Origin: an uncultured Bacilli bacterium
Lineage (GTDB): Bacteria; Bacillota_I; Bacilli_A; RF39; UBA660
Length of the DNA stretch: 33,699 nucleotides
Assembly (NCBI GenBank): GCA_947594705.1
Contig: CANQEG010000003.1
Location: 1 to 33,699, forward strand
Direction: 5' to 3'
Positions 6,635-33,699 of the stretch are shown here, piece by piece. A program made the translations under genes and the position numbers. Under the pieces are notes generated by a model. The model did no database searches. It saw only the letters and a list, made by a program, of their open reading frames with translations, and was not told the DNA's origin. Positions within the stretch are counted from its first letter, which is position 1. Every line of letters begins with the position of its first letter.

Positions 6635-8764
6635 ATGGATCCATTGGATGAGAATGAAGTAGAACCTGAAGAAGTGAAGGAAGAAAATCAAGTGCCTGTT
6701 GAAATGGAGTTAGAACCACCAAAAAAAGACTTAGTTGCTGAAGGTAGTAAAAAATTAATTCAAAAATTATTAAAAAATCCATTTGTACTAGGATTTAGCG
6801 GATTATTTTTGTTTTTATTATTTTTAATTTTTTTAAGTGCTATTACAGAATCGAATGAAACAAATAATATTCCTTATAAAGAAAATGTAGGGTGTGAAAG
6901 TGTAACAGTTACTTATGATCCTTATAATGAAGAACAAGCAAGTTCTAGTGAAACTATGGATTTGGAAACTTATGTTAAATCAGCAGTGTATGAATATTCA
7001 AAAGATATCAAAGAAAAGGTAGATATGCAAAACTATTATTATGCTCTTGCTGTTGCGGTACGAACAGAAGTTATTGCGAATAGTTGTAAAATTACCTACC
7101 GAGATAAAAAATTAAGTAAATCCGTTCCAAGCGATAAAGATATAGATAATGCTTTAGAATTATCGGAAGGAGTTATTTTAACAGATTTAGAGGAAAATAT
7201 TGTTTCTTCAAAAGTAAGTGATTTTTGTTGGAATCAAAAAGAAGAACAAGAGAAAATGGAATATCAAATTTATCAGGCCAATCATTTTCCAGTTCCCATT
7301 TCTTTTATTGAAAGCAATTTAGCAAATGAAGTATATAAAAGTTGTCAATGTAATTATAAAACTTCTGTAGAAGAAGGAGATTGTGATGCAGAACTTTGTT
7401 ACGAAAAATGGGTCATTGAAACAGATGAGGAAACGGGAGAACCCATTTTATGTGGAATGGCTTGGCGACATCAAGATGATACTACTGGTTATAGTGTGTT
7501 AGGGTCTTATTATATTTTTAGACAATATGGAAGAGATCATAAAGGTTTGTTAAGTTACTTTTTTGGAAATGATACCAAATATATGACCATTAAAAAAGGA
7601 AAAGTGGAAGATACAACTTTGGCGAATCAGACCAATTGTTCTGAATTTAGTTTGACAACTACTTCTTTAACCAAAGAACAATTTATTGAAAAAGTGAATC
7701 AATTTCATTCGAGTGAATCGGCTTGGAAATTGTTCCAACAAAATGCTGGAAATATCTATGATATTGCGATTGCCAATCAAGCGAATCCTGAGATGATTAT
7801 GGTAAGGGCAAATTTGGAAGGGTTTTCTCCTGGGGGTTCTACTTATAATTATTTTGGAATTAGATGTTATAATGAAAGTCCTGAATCTTGTGAACATTAT
7901 AAATCCTTTGATGATGGTATATTAGGGTTTATCAAGGCTATCAAAAAATATGAATCTTTTGAACAGATGTATAGCAGTTATGCATATTTAGGAGATTATT
8001 GGTATAATCCTGGAAGTTGGGGATTAGGTGGATGTGCTTATGCCCATGAAATATACCCAGATGGTTTGGATTCTTATGTTCAAGATGCTTGTTCAGAGGC
8101 TAGAAAAGGAAATTGTACTAAGAGCAATAAAAGTATGTGTGTTGTAACTAGAGAAGAAGATCGAAATGCCTACTATCGTTATCAAGGAAGAAAAATGACC
8201 GATATGCGAGAAAGAATTTTTGGAATTTCTTCTGATAGTTGTACAAATAATACGTTAAATTATGGAAAATGTACTATTTTTAATCAAAGCGATCCAAGAT
8301 GGAAAAGTGAACAACTAGGATTTGGTAGTTCCACAATGGGAAATGCTGGATGTGCAGTAACTTCTGTTGCGATTGCCCTAACATGTACTGGAGAAGTAAC
8401 CGATAGTAATTTTTCTCCTCAACTACTAAATGAACGTTTAAAAGCAAAAAATGGTTTTAGTGGTTCATTAATTTATTGGGACAATGAAGCAATTCGTGAT
8501 TTTGTACCAAACTTTAATTTGGGAAACACCTATTCGATTAGTGCAGTAGATTCTATGGAAAGTAAAATTGAAAAATTAAAAACAGGGTTAGAGCCTAATA
8601 GAATTGGAATTGTTCATTTAAATTCCACTAGTGCAGGACATTTTGTAGTATTACAAAAAATTAATGAAGATAGTCATACCATTTCGGTTTTAGATCCTGC
8701 GGGGGGAAAAACAAATACATATTCACTTATGAATGTCGATGGATTTAAATACTATACATATTAG
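6635..8764 (+). CDS. Membrane-anchored multidomain cell-wall hydrolase (SpoIID-like, glucosaminidase-like, C39-like)
   Basis: 709 aa. An acidic N-terminus (1-35) precedes one membrane helix (about 48-69), so the rest should be extracellular. Residues about 107-185 resemble a degenerate SpoIID/LytB domain (YALAVAVRTEV corresponds to the usual KAQAVAARTYA). Residues about 355-490 resemble a glucosaminidase/lysozyme-type domain (NPEMIMVRANLEGFSPGG with E395, then YFGIRCY and SFDDGILGFI). Residues about 545-709 form a papain-like C39-type domain with C573 (GNAGCAVTSVA) and H669 (AGHFVVL). Many cysteines outside suggest disulfides. It is followed after 14 bp by an anchored protein and then by a VirD4-like ATPase, the context of a VirB1-like peptidoglycan remodeller. 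Catalytic competence of each domain is unproven. Confidence 0.75.
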   Translation: MDPLDENEVEPEEVKEENQVPVEMELEPPKKDLVAEGSKKLIQKLLKNPFVLGFSGLFLFLLFLIFLSAITESNETNNIPYKENVGCESVTVTYDPYNEEQASSSETMDLETYVKSAVYEYSKDIKEKVDMQNYYYALAVAVRTEVIANSCKITYRDKKLSKSVPSDKDIDNALELSEGVILTDLEENIVSSKVSDFCWNQKEEQEKMEYQIYQANHFPVPISFIESNLANEVYKSCQCNYKTSVEEGDCDAELCYEKWVIETDEETGEPILCGMAWRHQDDTTGYSVLGSYYIFRQYGRDHKGLLSYFFGNDTKYMTIKKGKVEDTTLANQTNCSEFSLTTTSLTKEQFIEKVNQFHSSESAWKLFQQNAGNIYDIAIANQANPEMIMVRANLEGFSPGGSTYNYFGIRCYNESPESCEHYKSFDDGILGFIKAIKKYESFEQMYSSYAYLGDYWYNPGSWGLGGCAYAHEIYPDGLDSYVQDACSEARKGNCTKSNKSMCVVTREEDRNAYYRYQGRKMTDMRERIFGISSDSCTNNTLNYGKCTIFNQSDPRWKSEQLGFGSSTMGNAGCAVTSVAIALTCTGEVTDSNFSPQLLNERLKAKNGFSGSLIYWDNEAIRDFVPNFNLGNTYSISAVDSMESKIEKLKTGLEPNRIGIVHLNSTSAGHFVVLQKINEDSHTISVLDPAGGKTNTYSLMNVDGFKYYTY

Positions 8765-9613: not shown

Positions 9614-11761
9614 ATGAAATTTCGGGTAGATAAAAAAGATTTTATTATATTTATTATATTTTGTATATTTTTACTTTATTTATGTGCCATCGCTGTTCTT
9701 AATTTTTCATCTTTTGCGAATGATGGTACTTTTTCAGGGTTAAATCCATTTCCAGCATTTTCTAAAGATTATATATTGCTTACTTTATTTATGTTTGGAA
9801 TGGCTTTGGTAATTATTTTTTCAAGTGTATCATCTTATATATTTGATAGAGATAAAGGTTCTAAAAAATTATTAACAATTGGTGATAAAGAAGAGAAAGG
9901 GTATTCTAGATGGGCAAGCGACAAAGAAATGAAAAGTGATCGCGGTGTTGTTCATGTTATGAGTACCGACCAATATGTAGAAGGTGCTGGAATACCTTTA
10001 ATTAATGATGGAAAAAATTTATGGGTAGATAATAGTGATTATCATACTATGGTAATTGGTTCTACCGGTTCTGGTAAAAGTGAGAGTTTAGTAAAACCAA
10101 TGGTGAATTTACTCGCGAAAAAAGGTGAAAGTATCATTATTAATGACCCTAAAGCAGAATTGTATAAATATTGTGGAGATTATTTAAAAGAACAAGGGTA
10201 CAATATTATTGTTTTAAACTTTCGTGATCCCGATTTAGGAAATTCTTGGAGTCCTCTTGCTATGCCTTATTATTATTTTAAAAATGGTAACATTGATAAA
10301 GCAACAGAACTTGTAGAAGATATTGCTAATAATATTTTAGTAGACCCAAAAAATAAAGATTCAGCATTCTGGGAAAAATCCGCCGCAGATTATTTCTCTG
10401 CTTTGGCAATTGGTTTATTTCGTGATGGAAAAGAAGATGAAATTAACTTTAACTCTATTAATGTGATGAGTACGGTGGGAGAAGAAAGATTTGGCGCAAG
10501 TAATTATATTAAAGAATACTTTGCTATTAAAGGAGAATCTTCTCCAGAATATATTTCTGGTTCGACTACATTTAATGCTCCAAGTGAAACCAAAGGAGGA
10601 ATTTTATCAACCTTTAGACAAAAAATAAGAATTTTCTCTTCACGAGAAAAATTATCAGAAATGCTTTCTTATAGTGATTTTGATATGCGAAGTATTGGGG
10701 AAAAGAAAACGGCTGTATTCTTAATTATTCATGATGAAAAAACAACATATCATAGTTTACTTACTGTATTTATTAAACAATGTTATGAAACTTTAATTGA
10801 AGTTGCGCAAACAAATGGTGGAAAACTAAAATATCGTACCAATTTCATATTGGATGAATTTGCCAATATGCCTCCCTTACAAGATGTAGATTCGATGGTA
10901 TCTGCCGCTCGTTCTAGAGATATTCGGTTTACTTTTATTATTCAAAACTTCTCGCAATTAAATGATGTATATGGTAAAGAAATTGCTGAAACATTAAAAG
11001 GAAATTGTGGAAATTTGGTGTACTTAATTAGTACCGAAATGGCGGCCTTAGAAGAAATAAGTAAGATGTGTGGAGAAGTAAAAAGCAAAGAAAAAGATAA
11101 AACTGCTTCAACACCTTTGGTAACTGTTACTGATTTACAAAAAATGAAATTAGGGCAAGTTATTATTAAAAGATTGAGAATGAATCCTTTTAAAACAAAA
11201 CTTTCACCTGATATGAAAATGGATTGGGGAATTGAAAGAAAAGAAATGCCTTTTCCTAAAAGAGAGTTAAAACCAATTGCCACATTTGATATTAAAACTT
11301 ATGTTTCAGAAACCAAAAGAAAACAAATGATGGAAAGTGGTGAACCAAATACGGGATTTAATCCATTTATGCCAAGTATGGGACCGAATCCATTTGGGTC
11401 AAGTCCAATGAGCAGTGGTGGTTTTGGAGCTATGAATAAACCAATGAATGATTTAATTCCTGGGCTTGATAAACCTGTTTCTAGTTTAACCAATGAAGAA
11501 ATAGATAAAATGATTGCGGACATTGATAAAAAATTAAAAGAATTAGATGAAATGGAAGAAAAAGAAAAACAGGAAGCTAAGAAGAAAGAAGAATCTAAAA
11601 TAGAATTACCAGAAAAGAAAGAAAAAGAAGAAATTATAGAACCAAAAATCGAAGAGAAAAAAGAAATGCCAAAACTTTCGATTGATATGGATTCTGTTAT
11701 TATGAATGATAATGGAATTACCGATGATGAATTTTTTGATGATTTCTTTAATGATGATTAA
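9614..11761 (+). CDS. VirD4/TraG-type type IV coupling ATPase
   Basis: 715 aa. Two N-terminal membrane helices (about 9-31 and 54-77) precede the ATPase domain. Walker A is GSTGSGKS (149-156), with NDPKAELY soon after. Walker B is FILDEFANMP (D414-E415), followed by SAARSRDIRFTFIIQN, the typical TraG/VirD4 arginine/glutamine region. The C-terminal part adds a Met/Gly/Pro-rich linker (about 580-610), a Lys/Glu coiled-coil-like stretch (about 635-690) and an acidic tail (DDEFFDDFFNDD), plausible contact points for substrates or partners. These proteins pump DNA-protein or protein substrates into a type IV channel. No relaxase, VirB4 or VirB6 gene is in the window. AGGAGG lies 7 nt before the ATG, and TATAAT is at 9582-9587. 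Confidence 0.9.
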   Translation: MKFRVDKKDFIIFIIFCIFLLYLCAIAVLNFSSFANDGTFSGLNPFPAFSKDYILLTLFMFGMALVIIFSSVSSYIFDRDKGSKKLLTIGDKEEKGYSRWASDKEMKSDRGVVHVMSTDQYVEGAGIPLINDGKNLWVDNSDYHTMVIGSTGSGKSESLVKPMVNLLAKKGESIIINDPKAELYKYCGDYLKEQGYNIIVLNFRDPDLGNSWSPLAMPYYYFKNGNIDKATELVEDIANNILVDPKNKDSAFWEKSAADYFSALAIGLFRDGKEDEINFNSINVMSTVGEERFGASNYIKEYFAIKGESSPEYISGSTTFNAPSETKGGILSTFRQKIRIFSSREKLSEMLSYSDFDMRSIGEKKTAVFLIIHDEKTTYHSLLTVFIKQCYETLIEVAQTNGGKLKYRTNFILDEFANMPPLQDVDSMVSAARSRDIRFTFIIQNFSQLNDVYGKEIAETLKGNCGNLVYLISTEMAALEEISKMCGEVKSKEKDKTASTPLVTVTDLQKMKLGQVIIKRLRMNPFKTKLSPDMKMDWGIERKEMPFPKRELKPIATFDIKTYVSETKRKQMMESGEPNTGFNPFMPSMGPNPFGSSPMSSGGFGAMNKPMNDLIPGLDKPVSSLTNEEIDKMIADIDKKLKELDEMEEKEKQEAKKKEESKIELPEKKEKEEIIEPKIEEKKEMPKLSIDMDSVIMNDNGITDDEFFDDFFNDD

Positions 11762-12128: not shown

Positions 12129-12989
12129 ATGAAAACAAGAATTGATAAATATGGAGAAGATGAAAGTTTTCCACCAAAAAGAGTTTCCAAAAATACTGAA
12201 TTATACGAAGAAATCAAGAATTGTGAACTTGATAGTTTTGATATTGGAAGTAATGCCAAAGTTATTGCCGATAGTAATAATCAAATTGATATTGATAAAC
12301 TAAAAGATATATTAGAAAAAAATTATCAAGAACCTCCAAAAAAAAGAAGTATGAAATTTGATTTTCCTGAAACCAATGATATTGAAACTTTAGATATAGA
12401 AGAAGAACCAAAAGAATACGATATTAATACTATTTTAGAACAAGCTAGAGAAGAAAAAGAAGAAGATTATCAAAAAGAAAGATTAAAAAAAGTAAGAGAT
12501 ACTCAATATGATATTTTAAAAAGTTTAGAAATTGAAGCTAAAAGTAAAAACGAAGAAAAATCGAAAGAAGAATTATTAGAACTTATTAATACAATAAATT
12601 TAAATGAAATTCAAAGTAAAAATGGTAAAAAATTACAAGAAGAAATAGATGATATGGACCCTTTAGATATTTTGACCGAATTAAAAGGGGATGATAATAC
12701 AGTTGTAGAAGGTGCCAAAGAATTTACTGAAGAAATTCAAAAATTTGAAATTAATAGTTTAGAATTAAAAGGAGAAAAAGAACAAGAAGAAATTGCGGAA
12801 GCTTTAGATGAAACATTAGATAAATCATTTTATACAACTAATACTATTTTTACAGAAAAAGATTTTTCTGATTCTGATAATGATAAAGGAAGTATTGTTG
12901 TAAAGATATTAATTGTTGTTGTTTTTCTAGCCATTGTAGCAGGATTGGTTATTTTCTTAAATGAATTTTTGGGTTTAGGTTGGTTTTAA
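12129..12989 (+). CDS. Acidic tail-anchored protein of unknown function
   Basis: 286 aa, very rich in Glu, Asp, Lys and Asn, probably largely coiled or disordered. A single hydrophobic helix at the C-terminus (about 258-279, VVKILIVVVFLAIVAGLVIFL) should anchor it with the bulk in the cytosol. No family was recognised. An extended -10 (TGTTATATT, TATATT at 12100-12105) and AAAGGAT precede the ATG. The next gene's promoter begins directly at its stop codon. Tail-anchored acidic proteins of this kind can be cell-envelope or division-associated scaffolds, but that is speculation. Confidence 0.75.
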   Translation: MKTRIDKYGEDESFPPKRVSKNTELYEEIKNCELDSFDIGSNAKVIADSNNQIDIDKLKDILEKNYQEPPKKRSMKFDFPETNDIETLDIEEEPKEYDINTILEQAREEKEEDYQKERLKKVRDTQYDILKSLEIEAKSKNEEKSKEELLELINTINLNEIQSKNGKKLQEEIDDMDPLDILTELKGDDNTVVEGAKEFTEEIQKFEINSLELKGEKEQEEIAEALDETLDKSFYTTNTIFTEKDFSDSDNDKGSIVVKILIVVVFLAIVAGLVIFLNEFLGLGWF

Positions 12990-13021
12990 TTGACTCGGGG
13001 GGGGGGTATGTGTGTTAAACT
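12990..13021 (+). promoter_or_regulatory. Promoter with ten-G spacer tract (putative phase-variable promoter)
   Basis: TTGACT (12990-12995, one mismatch from consensus) and an extended -10 TGTTAAACT (TAAACT at 13016-13021) flank a spacer that consists largely of ten consecutive G. The spacer is 20 bp as read, so loss of two to four G would bring it to the optimal 16-18 bp. This is the layout of known slipped-strand switches such as Neisseria porA. The start codon follows 30 bp later. Confidence 0.6.
12997..13006. repeat. Homopolymeric G10 tract
   Basis: Ten G in a row between gene 12129-12989 and the lectin-like surface protein. Apart from the tract at 33352, no run in the window exceeds six G, although the region is strongly AT-rich. 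Confidence 0.95.
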
Positions 13022-13051
13022 CATTCTAGGAAACTAGGGTGATTTTTTTAT

Positions 13052-14896
13052 ATGAAATTAAAAAGATTTAAAGATAAAAATCCAAAAAAAGTAGGAATCA
13101 TACTATTTACAATCAGTTGTATATTATTAATCAGTGGCGTAATTTTATATAGAACCTTTGCTATATTCGAGGTAAACGAAACACAAAATATGATTGAAGG
13201 AAATATACAAGATGAAGGCGACATTAGATTCATGGTATATATAGATGATGTCTTACAGAAAGATGTCCCAAATAAAGATAGTGGGTATTCCTTAGATACT
13301 AGTACTAGTTATTGTGATAATGGCGATTTAATTTCATGGGATGATGAAAATTGGGAAGTAAGGCTTAAAAATATAAGTACCACCAAAACAAAATGTTATT
13401 TAAAGTTTAAACAAATCTATAAAGAAGAAACATTAAATGGAGCCATACCAGATTTAGGAAATGGAAGACTTATTCCAGTAAAAATAAGTGATACAGAAAA
13501 GCCAAGTGATGTTACAGAATATACAAATGCTGGAAATAAATATGGAGGAAAAGTAACTAAAGCAGATATTACAAGTGAATGGTATAACTATAGTAAACAA
13601 CAATGGGCCAATGCCGTGATACTTAAAGATGGTAAGGTAGATAATTATCAACCAGGAGATGAAATAAAAGAAAGTGATATTGAAAGTTATTTTGTATGGA
13701 TACCAAGATATAGATATCAATTAAAGTTTGATGAGGCGACATATAACAAATATACAATTGTAGAAGATGTTGAAAGTGTTGCAAATATAGATAAATTTTA
13801 TGAAATACATTCTAATCTAGCAACAAATAGTGTTTTTGAAATTACATTTGAAACAAAAAATGAAGGTATAAAAACTGGAAGTACAAAGGAAAATTGGATT
13901 ACTCATCCAGCATTTTCCTCATTTGATAGTAATGGTTTTTGGGTTGGAAAGTTTGAAACAGGGTATAATGGTGCAAATAGTAAAGAAACTGCTCAGATAA
14001 ACAAACAAGAAGTAGAAAATGTTATTATCAAACCAAATATATATTCATGGAGATATATTGATGTGTCAAATGCTTTTTATACTTCATATACATATCAAAG
14101 AGACTTAGAAAGTCATATGATGAAAAATACCGAATGGGGAGCAGTAGCTTATTTAACTCAATCCATTTATGGAAGATGTCCAAATAAAAGTTGTAAGGAA
14201 GTAAGAATGAATAATTCGGAAAATTATATTACAGGAATGAGTGCAAAATCTGCTCCTACCTGTGGTTATACAAACTCTAATGAAACTTGTAATCACTATG
14301 AAACAACTGAATTAAATAAAGATGGAGATTTTATAAATAGTTATTACAATTTTGATAGTAAAGAATCTAGTACAACAGGAAATTATTATGGAATATATGA
14401 TATGTCTGGTGGAGCATGGGAATATGTCATGGGAGTCATGCAAGGAACTGAAAATGGAACAACATCTCCATCAAGTGGAAGAAGTAAAACATATAATTCA
14501 AATTTTAAAGGACCATATAGTTGTCCTAAATGTGATGGTAACCAAGCAACTGATAAAGAAAATACTACAGGAAGAGAATGGCCATCTTCAAAATATTATG
14601 ATTTATATGATTATAAAACAAATAATCAGGAATATCAAAGAGGTATTTTGGGCGATGCAACAAAGGAATTTGGGCCATTTTATCGTTTTTCATATCAAAA
14701 AACAGGCGGAACAGGACCATCTCGATATGTGGGAAGTTATAATGCAAACTATGCATCTTTTGTGTATTCTAGTTTTCCATGGTTTCTACGTGGTGGCACT
14801 TGTAATTATGGGAGTGATGCTGGTGTTTTTGCTTTTGGAATTGGTTATGGATGTACTGGTTTAGATGGTGGTTTCCGTATTATATTAACACCATAA
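13052..14896 (+). CDS. Surface protein with C-type-lectin/SUMF1-like C-terminal domain
   Basis: 614 aa. An N-terminal membrane segment (about 13-33) is followed by YRTFAIFEVNETQN, then an extracellular beta-rich region (about 40-115). From about 185 on the sequence matches a formylglycine-generating-enzyme-like / C-type lectin fold: WIPRYRY, GFWVGKFETG, HMMKNTEWGAVAYL, YGIYDMSGGAWEYVMG and the closing WFLRGG...AGVFAF...GGFR (577-614). In this fold GGFR and WFLRGG frame a ligand-binding face. Such proteins are often mistaken for sulfatase-modifying enzymes; surface ligand binding is more likely here because it is membrane-anchored and its C-terminus resembles diversified lectin regions. AGGGTGA lies 9 nt before the ATG. 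Expression is probably set by the G10 promoter upstream. Confidence 0.75.
   Translation: MKLKRFKDKNPKKVGIILFTISCILLISGVILYRTFAIFEVNETQNMIEGNIQDEGDIRFMVYIDDVLQKDVPNKDSGYSLDTSTSYCDNGDLISWDDENWEVRLKNISTTKTKCYLKFKQIYKEETLNGAIPDLGNGRLIPVKISDTEKPSDVTEYTNAGNKYGGKVTKADITSEWYNYSKQQWANAVILKDGKVDNYQPGDEIKESDIESYFVWIPRYRYQLKFDEATYNKYTIVEDVESVANIDKFYEIHSNLATNSVFEITFETKNEGIKTGSTKENWITHPAFSSFDSNGFWVGKFETGYNGANSKETAQINKQEVENVIIKPNIYSWRYIDVSNAFYTSYTYQRDLESHMMKNTEWGAVAYLTQSIYGRCPNKSCKEVRMNNSENYITGMSAKSAPTCGYTNSNETCNHYETTELNKDGDFINSYYNFDSKESSTTGNYYGIYDMSGGAWEYVMGVMQGTENGTTSPSSGRSKTYNSNFKGPYSCPKCDGNQATDKENTTGREWPSSKYYDLYDYKTNNQEYQRGILGDATKEFGPFYRFSYQKTGGTGPSRYVGSYNANYASFVYSSFPWFLRGGTCNYGSDAGVFAFGIGYGCTGLDGGFRIILTP
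14780..14893 (+). other. Candidate hypervariable lectin segment
   Basis: This segment codes for the C-terminus from WFLRGG to ILTP. It has the conserved frame (WFLRGG, AGVFAF, GFR) with unconserved positions between, mostly codons ending in T (ACT TGT AAT TAT; GGA ATT GGT TAT; TGT ACT GGT). The pattern is what adenine-directed mutagenesis of AAT codons leaves in diversity-generating retroelement targets. No reverse transcriptase or template repeat lies in the window. Confidence 0.3.
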
Positions 14897-33301: not shown

Positions 33302-33336
33302 AAGAGTATAAAAAAAATAAAGGAGGCCTCCAAAAG

Positions 33337-33699
33337 ATGAAAAAAACTCTTGGGGGGGGGGTTATTTAGACTCCCAAAAAAATATTTATTTTTAGTCATT
33401 CTTATTTTATTTTTGTTTATCAGTAGTTTTTCTTATGCTTATTGGAAATATAGTGATACCCAAAATATATCAAATGTTGTAGGAACAAAATGTTTACAAC
33501 TAACCATGCATAATGAAACTGAGGGAATTACTATTACAGATGCAGCCCCAATGAGTGATGAAAAAGGAAAAACTCAGGAAGGGTATACCTTTACCATAAA
33601 AAATACTTGTAATACCATAGCCTATTATCAAGTAAACTTAGAAGAAGAATTAGAAAACAATATAAAAAGATTATCAAATGAATATATCAAAGTAAGTTT
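33337..33699 (+). pseudogene. Surface protein gene out of frame at a G10 tract (putative phase-off), 3' end beyond window
   Basis: ATG 33337 follows AAAGGAGG by 10 nt. As read, the frame is MKKTLGGGVI then TAG at 33667-... relative to the gene start (33367-33369), ten codons. With nine G instead of ten the frame becomes MKKTLGGGLFRLPKKY and stays open to the window end (about 120 codons). It then encodes a signal/anchor helix LFLVILILFLFISSFSYAYW, the sequence KYSDTQNISNVVGT, and a beta-rich domain containing YTFTIKNTCNTIAYYQVNLE. This resembles exported TasA/camelysin-like or SipW-dependent surface proteins (weak match). A TTG at 33350 is in frame with the long ORF but has no ribosome-binding site. 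It is therefore either a reversible off state, a sequencing miscount or a decayed gene. Confidence 0.7.
33352..33361. repeat. Homopolymeric G10 tract inside a coding sequence
   Basis: Ten G starting at codon 6 of the surface protein gene. Loss of one G, or gain of two, puts the downstream frame in register with the ATG. Confidence 0.95.

Follow-up and report, generated by a model that had tools for sequence, protein, structure and literature searches.

Can a homopolymeric run of G residues between the –35 and –10 elements switch a surface protein gene on and off if this gene directly follows another gene of the same orientation? This question is raised by a locus of an uncultured Bacilli bacterium in the window, by which we mean the whole stretch of DNA that was analysed (33,699 nucleotides). 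Based on the observations described below, we consider it likely that the locus carries a transcriptional phase-variation switch with a G-tract as promoter spacer, that this switch is fused to an intrinsic terminator, and that it is one of 24 such switches, which the genome possesses in addition to five switches with coding tracts.

A G-tract in the promoter spacer of a putative surface protein gene

The TAA stop codon of the upstream gene (12987–12989) directly touches the –35 element at 12990, and the promoter sequence from there to position 13021 reads TTGACT C GGGGGGGGGG TATGTGTGT TAAACT (Table 1). The –10 hexamer (13016–13021) is preceded by a TG at 13013–13014, and 20 bp separate it from the –35 element. 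Our reading of the sequence confirms TTGACT, the ten G residues, the 20-bp spacer and the extended –10 element as given in a preliminary description of this DNA. Position 13052, where the interval described there ends, is the ATG start codon of the 614-aa ORF. A translational fusion across this tract was excluded, because an in-frame TGA (13040–13042) is located between the tract and the ATG.

Table 1. Features of the window and of related genes (positions refer to the window unless a locus is named).
Feature	Position	Strand	Basis or remark
–35 element TTGACT	12990..12995	+	TTG[AT]NN in every aligned site, chiefly TTGAC
C (12996), followed by the G10 tract of the promoter spacer, along which slippage is proposed	12997..13006	+	G8–G13 among 84 homologous sites
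Extended –10 element TGT TAAACT (TGTTAAACT)	13013..13021	+	aligned elements of relatives: TGATAAAAT, TGATATAAT, TGATAGAAT
Nested hairpin and U-run (stem 13021–13029/13034–13042, loop GAAA 13030–13033, T7 13043–13049)	13021..13049	+	
Predicted transcription start A, preceded by T, 7 nt past the –10 hexamer	13028	+	predicted from the genus-wide step
Shine-Dalgarno-like AGGGTGAT, largely within the 3′ arm of the hairpin	13036..13043	+	proposed from sequence
614-aa surface protein, N-terminal membrane anchor, FGE/C-type-lectin-fold-like C-terminus	13052..14896	+	ORF, family comparison, profile matches
Co-directional upstream gene, 286 aa, C-terminal membrane segment, potential source of read-through	12129..12989	+	
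Same-family member without poly-G	L234:13257-14507		
Same-family member without poly-G	L229:12229-14034		
Same-family member without poly-G	L237:3224-5074		
Second G10 tract, codons 6–9 of the ORF with ATG 33337	33352..33361	+	out of frame, TAG 33367–33369
Signal-anchor surface protein in the downstream frame of the second switch gene	33350..33697	+	extends past the window end

The promoter pattern was found in 20 of 36 genomes of the same genus (own genome included) and was absent from all 23 genomes that represent other genera of this class; a reversed pattern, used as a control, gave no match in the same genome set. The resulting site set comprises 84 sites from 19 genomes, of which 63 sites are unique. 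For the relatives, each species being represented by one fragmented metagenome assembly, the number of sites is a lower bound, since promoters lacking the TG, as they occur in G002 and G012, were not systematically covered. Over all 84 sites, the –35 element, the extended –10 element and a pyrimidine-purine step at the start site are conserved while the tract varies, and phase variation by a poly-G promoter spacer, as first proposed in the preliminary description, is therefore strongly supported by the anatomy. In 53 of 63 unique sites of the genus, the –10 hexamer is followed by a pyrimidine at 6 nt and a purine at 7 nt, which form the start step. The –10 elements of the relatives (Table 1) are nearer to the consensus than TAAACT, which settles the promoter assignment for this weaker hexamer of the window.

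A few unrelated bins contain similar promoters, whose spacers measure 15–17 or 18–21 bp. Poly-G spacer promoters were also seen in Elusimicrobiota, in Paceibacterota and in two Clostridia bins; three copies from Elusimicrobiota have near-identical flanks and tracts of G9, G10 and G11. In the Bacilli bin Lapin-027 bin35, 13 promoters of the type TTGACTC-G8-TGNTATACT all have exactly G8, a 16-bp spacer and no nested hairpin of the kind described below. This set apparently represents an independent, uniform poly-G promoter family.

Long G-tracts form a separate class in the genome

The own assembly (1.19 Mb in 105 contigs, 28% GC, 87.6% complete) was analysed together with a control sample of 683 kb taken from it by region. 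Six matches to G8 were counted in the window compared with 0.04 expected by chance, and all six derive from two G10 tracts. In the 683-kb sample, G/C runs decrease from 581 of length 4 to 100 of length 5 and 9 of length 6, are absent at lengths 7 and 8, and reappear with 3 runs of 9 and 11 runs of 10. Because the counts drop to zero in between, the long G-tracts represent a separate class and not the tail of a distribution. The genome harbors 29 G-tracts of 9–12, all of which are accounted for: 24 are promoter spacers between a TTGNNN –35 element and the extended –10 element TGNTANNNT, and five are located among the first codons, a few codons into ORFs with the start ATGAAAAA. The readable genes behind these tracts encode proteins with an N-terminal membrane anchor; behind several promoter tracts the gene is unreadable, since the contig ends too early. 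The preliminary description had presented the window switch as a single case. The switch itself stands, but it belongs to this much larger set, and the putative nested terminator had been overlooked.

Some of the 29 tracts are found near contig ends, as would suit sequencing or assembly artefacts caused by two-colour chemistry. We give practically no credence to such an origin: the majority of the tracts is internal, every one is placed either in a promoter or at a start codon, and such tracts reappear in numerous bins inside and outside the genus. Both mutS and mutL are intact in this genome, so that slippage is not aided by their loss, and a mismatch-repair defect as the cause of tract variation was ruled out.

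On contig 2, an IS200/IS605-type transposase-like gene ends 62 bp upstream of the –35 element, and an identical transposase-like sequence is found directly beside the poly-G promoters of contigs 12 and 92. This suggests either repeated insertion beside the switch or co-mobilisation of the transposase-like gene with it. Near the window switch, we also observed part of a conjugative element, including a VirD4-like coupling protein (CD1115 family; 9614–11761) and a large membrane protein that contains a C39-peptidase domain (6635–8764).

Tract length differs between copies and spacers are longer than ordinary

Counting G residues that adjoin the –35 element, the 84 sites have tracts of 10 (53 sites), 11 (13), 9 (12), 13 (3), 12 (2) and 8 (1). 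The total spacers range from 17 to 25 bp, with most of them at 20 bp (44 sites) or 19 bp (24 sites). Exact TTGACA-TATAAT promoters in the 683-kb sample show spacers of 16, 17 and 18 bp in 6, 9 and 3 cases, respectively; the assembled poly-G spacers are 2–3 bp longer than this ordinary length of ~17 bp. Since almost all of them are 19–21 bp, a toggling range around 17 bp is not seen. The preliminary description had regarded seven G residues, and thereby a 17-bp spacer, as the ideal state. This was a fair inference from the general rule, yet none of the 84 sites has G7, and the own-genome sample contains neither a G7 nor a G8 run. Two explanations follow from the difference between 19–20 bp and ~17 bp: the assembled state may be OFF in most cases, or more length may be required where the spacer is G-rich. 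We read the assembled majority state as weak or OFF, which would suit a repertoire of many genes with few of them ON, while a shifted spacer optimum for G-rich DNA is the alternative. Between the number of G residues and the length of the non-G part of the spacer, no compensation was detected (permutation p 0.15).

At related sites with conserved flanks, tract length can differ. In G025 and G032, for example, the tract comprises G10 and G9, respectively, with 90% identity of the upstream and 81% of the downstream DNA; two near-identical ortholog pairs have equal tracts. Sibling copies within one genome range from 10 to 13 in G013 and from 9 to 12 in the own genome. These differences bear on a further explanation, in which the tract is a fixed structural spacer of A-like or quadruplex-prone DNA that serves promoter strength or the 19–20-bp geometry with little length switching. 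The strong mode at 19–20 bp, seen in the genus and in some unrelated lineages, agrees with a fixed spacer, as does the unrelated Bacilli bin with its 13 copies of G8 and a spacer of 16 bp. We nevertheless regard it as improbable, because lengths differ between sibling copies and between orthologs, and because five genes of the own genome use G-tracts as reading-frame switches, where length alone counts.

A terminator-like hairpin is nested between the –10 element and the start site

The sequence following the –10 element of the window promoter, TCATTCTAG-GAAA-CTAGGGTGA-TTTTTTT, can fold into a hairpin whose 5′ arm is located between the –10 element and the start site. Its calculated fold is –10.6 kcal/mol at full length and 0 if the RNA begins at the predicted start. 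A stretch of 27 bp of this hairpin occurs in 16 exact copies in the own genome, and seven exact copies of a different hairpin belong to a second promoter family (family B). If a fold of –3.5 kcal/mol or better and a U-run length of 5–9 are required, 48 of the 63 unique sites in the genus, from 13 genomes, have a nested hairpin, and about a quarter lacks it. In 41 of these 48 sites, base five of the –10 hexamer is the first to pair, and in the rest pairing begins at most two bases from there; the mean fold is –7.5 kcal/mol for the full stretch compared with –1.4 kcal/mol from the predicted start.

The pairing is locked to this register and shows covariation. In 20 distinct sequences, 97% of the pair cells are kept, and 24 cells change on both sides compared with 8.2 in shuffles. 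The covariation score of 0.496 was reached by none of 500 shuffles (0.251), and slid registers gave at most 0.117. Within the own genome, the nested hairpin is present at 23 of 24 poly-G promoters but at only 4 of the 257 promoter-like sites of the ordinary type that the 683-kb sample contains (Fisher p ~1e-28). We also scanned the 683 kb for terminator-like hairpins in general. Only 8 of the 183 found are inside same-strand ORFs, while 86 are located within 100 nt past an ORF stop, indicating that the scan finds real terminators. Ten of them have an extended –10 element in register, all with a poly-G tract.

An inverted repeat at this position might also be the operator of a DNA-binding regulator, with the G-tract being secondary. 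It covers the start region, where repressors bind, and a poly-G-free paralog has a promoter palindrome with possible divergent regulator genes nearby. Three features make an operator very unlikely in our view: the arm sequences differ between families while pairing is kept, the loop is chiefly GAAA in the RNA-sense strand, and the U-run is found on the 3′ side only. The latter two are signs of an RNA terminator and point to an RNA element instead of a protein-binding palindrome. The stable stem, the U-run and the depletion inside genes are signs of a terminator as well. The stems are A+T-rich, and the nested hairpins would be moderate terminators.

The gene neighborhood indicates what such a terminator could act on. 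Upstream of the 20 poly-G promoters where this region is readable, 17 have a co-directional ORF, which in 14 cases ends at most 65 bp away. Among these upstream genes are those which we take to be tsaD, htpG, uvrC and rpoC; on contig 13, the stop codon of the presumed tsaD overlaps the –35 element. With co-directional genes this close, the downstream genes would receive read-through transcription unless it is blocked, and the hairpin has the appearance of a nested terminator shielding the switch from genes upstream. It could also simply terminate the upstream gene or be a 5′-UTR element of a phase-variable promoter, without any insulating role. Upstream genes that mostly end within 65 bp need a terminator, and in the window the stop codon even touches the –35 element. 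We still consider a mere terminator or leader element rather unlikely. The register to the –10 element is fixed across genomes, and little of the 5′ arm would be left in the predicted transcript. Moreover, the 16 exact 27-bp cassettes stand behind differing upstream genes, which indicates that the hairpin travels with the promoter.

Proteins encoded behind the proposed switches

The proteins of promoter family A share an N-terminal module of ~120 residues, which is joined to differing C-terminal domains with similarity to FGE-sulfatase or to the DUF285 repeat family, or with no assignment. Family B promoters precede a DUF285 protein in the scanned member, and the other members are similar by sequence. 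A lone promoter on contig 24 leads to an Ig-like protein (Big_2, Listeria-Bacteroides repeats). Being anchored and having FGE/lectin-like, DUF285 or Ig-like domains, the switch products are probably surface-exposed. A C-type-lectin-like nature of the window protein, as previously proposed, finds weak agreement in FGE-sulfatase profile matches of 4 of 25 relatives (best E 6e-5), to which the poor fold models could add nothing. Predicted structures of the surface protein fold reached a mean pLDDT of 34 and 49, and a Foldseek search with them gave nothing usable. A profile search against the PDB returned chance-level matches only, with the FGE-fold protein PvdO at E 0.95.

Diversification of the lectin-like C-termini by a diversity-generating retroelement (DGR) was rejected. 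No match to the RVT_1 reverse transcriptase profile was obtained in the own genome (87.6% complete), and C-terminal differences fall at all codon positions, as judged by eye, and are not confined to template adenines. Of the three same-family members without poly-G (Table 1), the first two, on contigs 18 and 13, have the promoter TTGACA-17-TATAAT. They adjoin palindromes and possible divergent regulator genes, and the poly-G-free paralogs may be regulated copies instead of phase-variable ones.

A second G-tract in the window is a putative frame switch

The second G10 tract of the window is preceded by ATGAAAAAAACTCTT with its ATG at 33337. From direct reading, the downstream frame would open with one G less or two more, and we interpret this tract as a translational switch. 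Among the sibling coding tracts, contig 86 has one in frame and one out of frame, contig 17 an out-of-frame tract (G9), and contig 77 a degenerate one. Together with the promoter tracts, these in- and out-of-frame siblings indicate that the genome exploits the length of G-tracts in two ways, in promoters and for switching the reading frame. In the frame-switch family, the ribosome site lies within a perfect palindrome, GGAGGCCTCC, right before the ATG (33323–33337 in the window), which is common to other copies.

Proposed mechanism

Slipped-strand mispairing would alter the number of G residues between the –35 and –10 elements in a population and thereby change the strength of this promoter for the vegetative σ factor, with certain tract lengths corresponding to the ON state. 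The 5′ arm of the hairpin begins at the last bases of the –10 element, so that only read-through RNA contains the whole hairpin. RNA starting at 13028 would lack the 5′ arm, escape termination and proceed into the gene, while RNA from the upstream gene would form the complete hairpin with its U-run and stop. In family A, the read-through hairpin would also close the Shine-Dalgarno sequence AGGGTGAT. If own-start RNA passes and read-through RNA is terminated, expression depends only on the own switch, and the gene would be expressed only with this switch ON.

We are inclined to see here a compact regulatory part that has not been described before: a phase-variable promoter in which the segment from the –10 element to the start site also serves as the 5′ arm of an intrinsic terminator. 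A gene placed behind any active gene would thus be silent unless its own promoter is ON, and about two dozen copies per genome would generate a combinatorial surface repertoire. The switching mechanism as such is known, while the variant with a nested terminator is apparently new. In the literature searched, we encountered no description of a terminator that is nested between –10 element and start site; as coverage of this literature was partial, the missing report is weak evidence.

Comparison with known systems

In Neisseria, the porA, opc and fetA promoters contain an unstable G/C homopolymer between the –35 and –10 elements, which is thought to alter σ factor binding (PMC2791445; PMC3960869 for opc). 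The likeness is a homopolymer in the promoter spacer of surface protein genes, whereas the Neisseria switches concern one or few genes of a Gram-negative pathogen with spacers of ~17 bp, compared with 24 in low-GC gut Bacilli with 19–20 bp. We know of no nested terminator in the porA, opc and fetA promoters. In Mycoplasma hyorhinis, the few, clustered vlp genes have a variable poly-A tract between the –35 and –10 elements, a homopolymer spacer switch in a low-GC relative that differs from ours in using A instead of G. The vlhA genes of Mycoplasma gallisepticum carry GAA repeats ~40 nt upstream of the start and are considered active only with 12 repeats (PMC6258824). They likewise form a large paralogous surface protein family with a repeat-length-controlled promoter for each gene, but the repeat is a trinucleotide located upstream of the promoter, and the abstract mentions no nested terminator (PMC6258824).

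G-tract slippage also controls surface structures in a gut commensal, as demonstrated for sortase-dependent pili of Bifidobacterium breve, and the authors mention more tracts in promoter spacers (PMC9187656). The tracts studied there are intragenic frame switches, like the second tract of the window and unlike the first. In Streptococcus gallolyticus, phase variation of pil1 is combined with a stem-loop terminator ahead of the surface genes (PMC3894217). This terminator is part of the gene's own leader, in which repeats alter a leader peptide. In our case, the 5′ arm is upstream of the start site, and only read-through RNA should be subject to termination. A hairpin exclusive to read-through RNA is known from IS10 and IS50, where it prevents expression; transcripts that start at the internal promoter do not contain the 5′ arm. 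There, the hairpin hides the ribosome site of the transposase, whereas here a terminator-like hairpin is fused to a phase-variable promoter. If true, the nested terminator answers a general problem, namely how to truly silence a switchable gene where genes are densely packed in the same direction, and it would make a convenient design for insulated promoters. Large poly-G contingency repertoires are known best in host-adapted Gram-negative bacteria. The repertoire of this uncultured Bacilli genus from the gut is comparable in size; it is chiefly transcriptional and not frame-shifting, serves modular surface proteins, and exists alongside intact mismatch repair genes.
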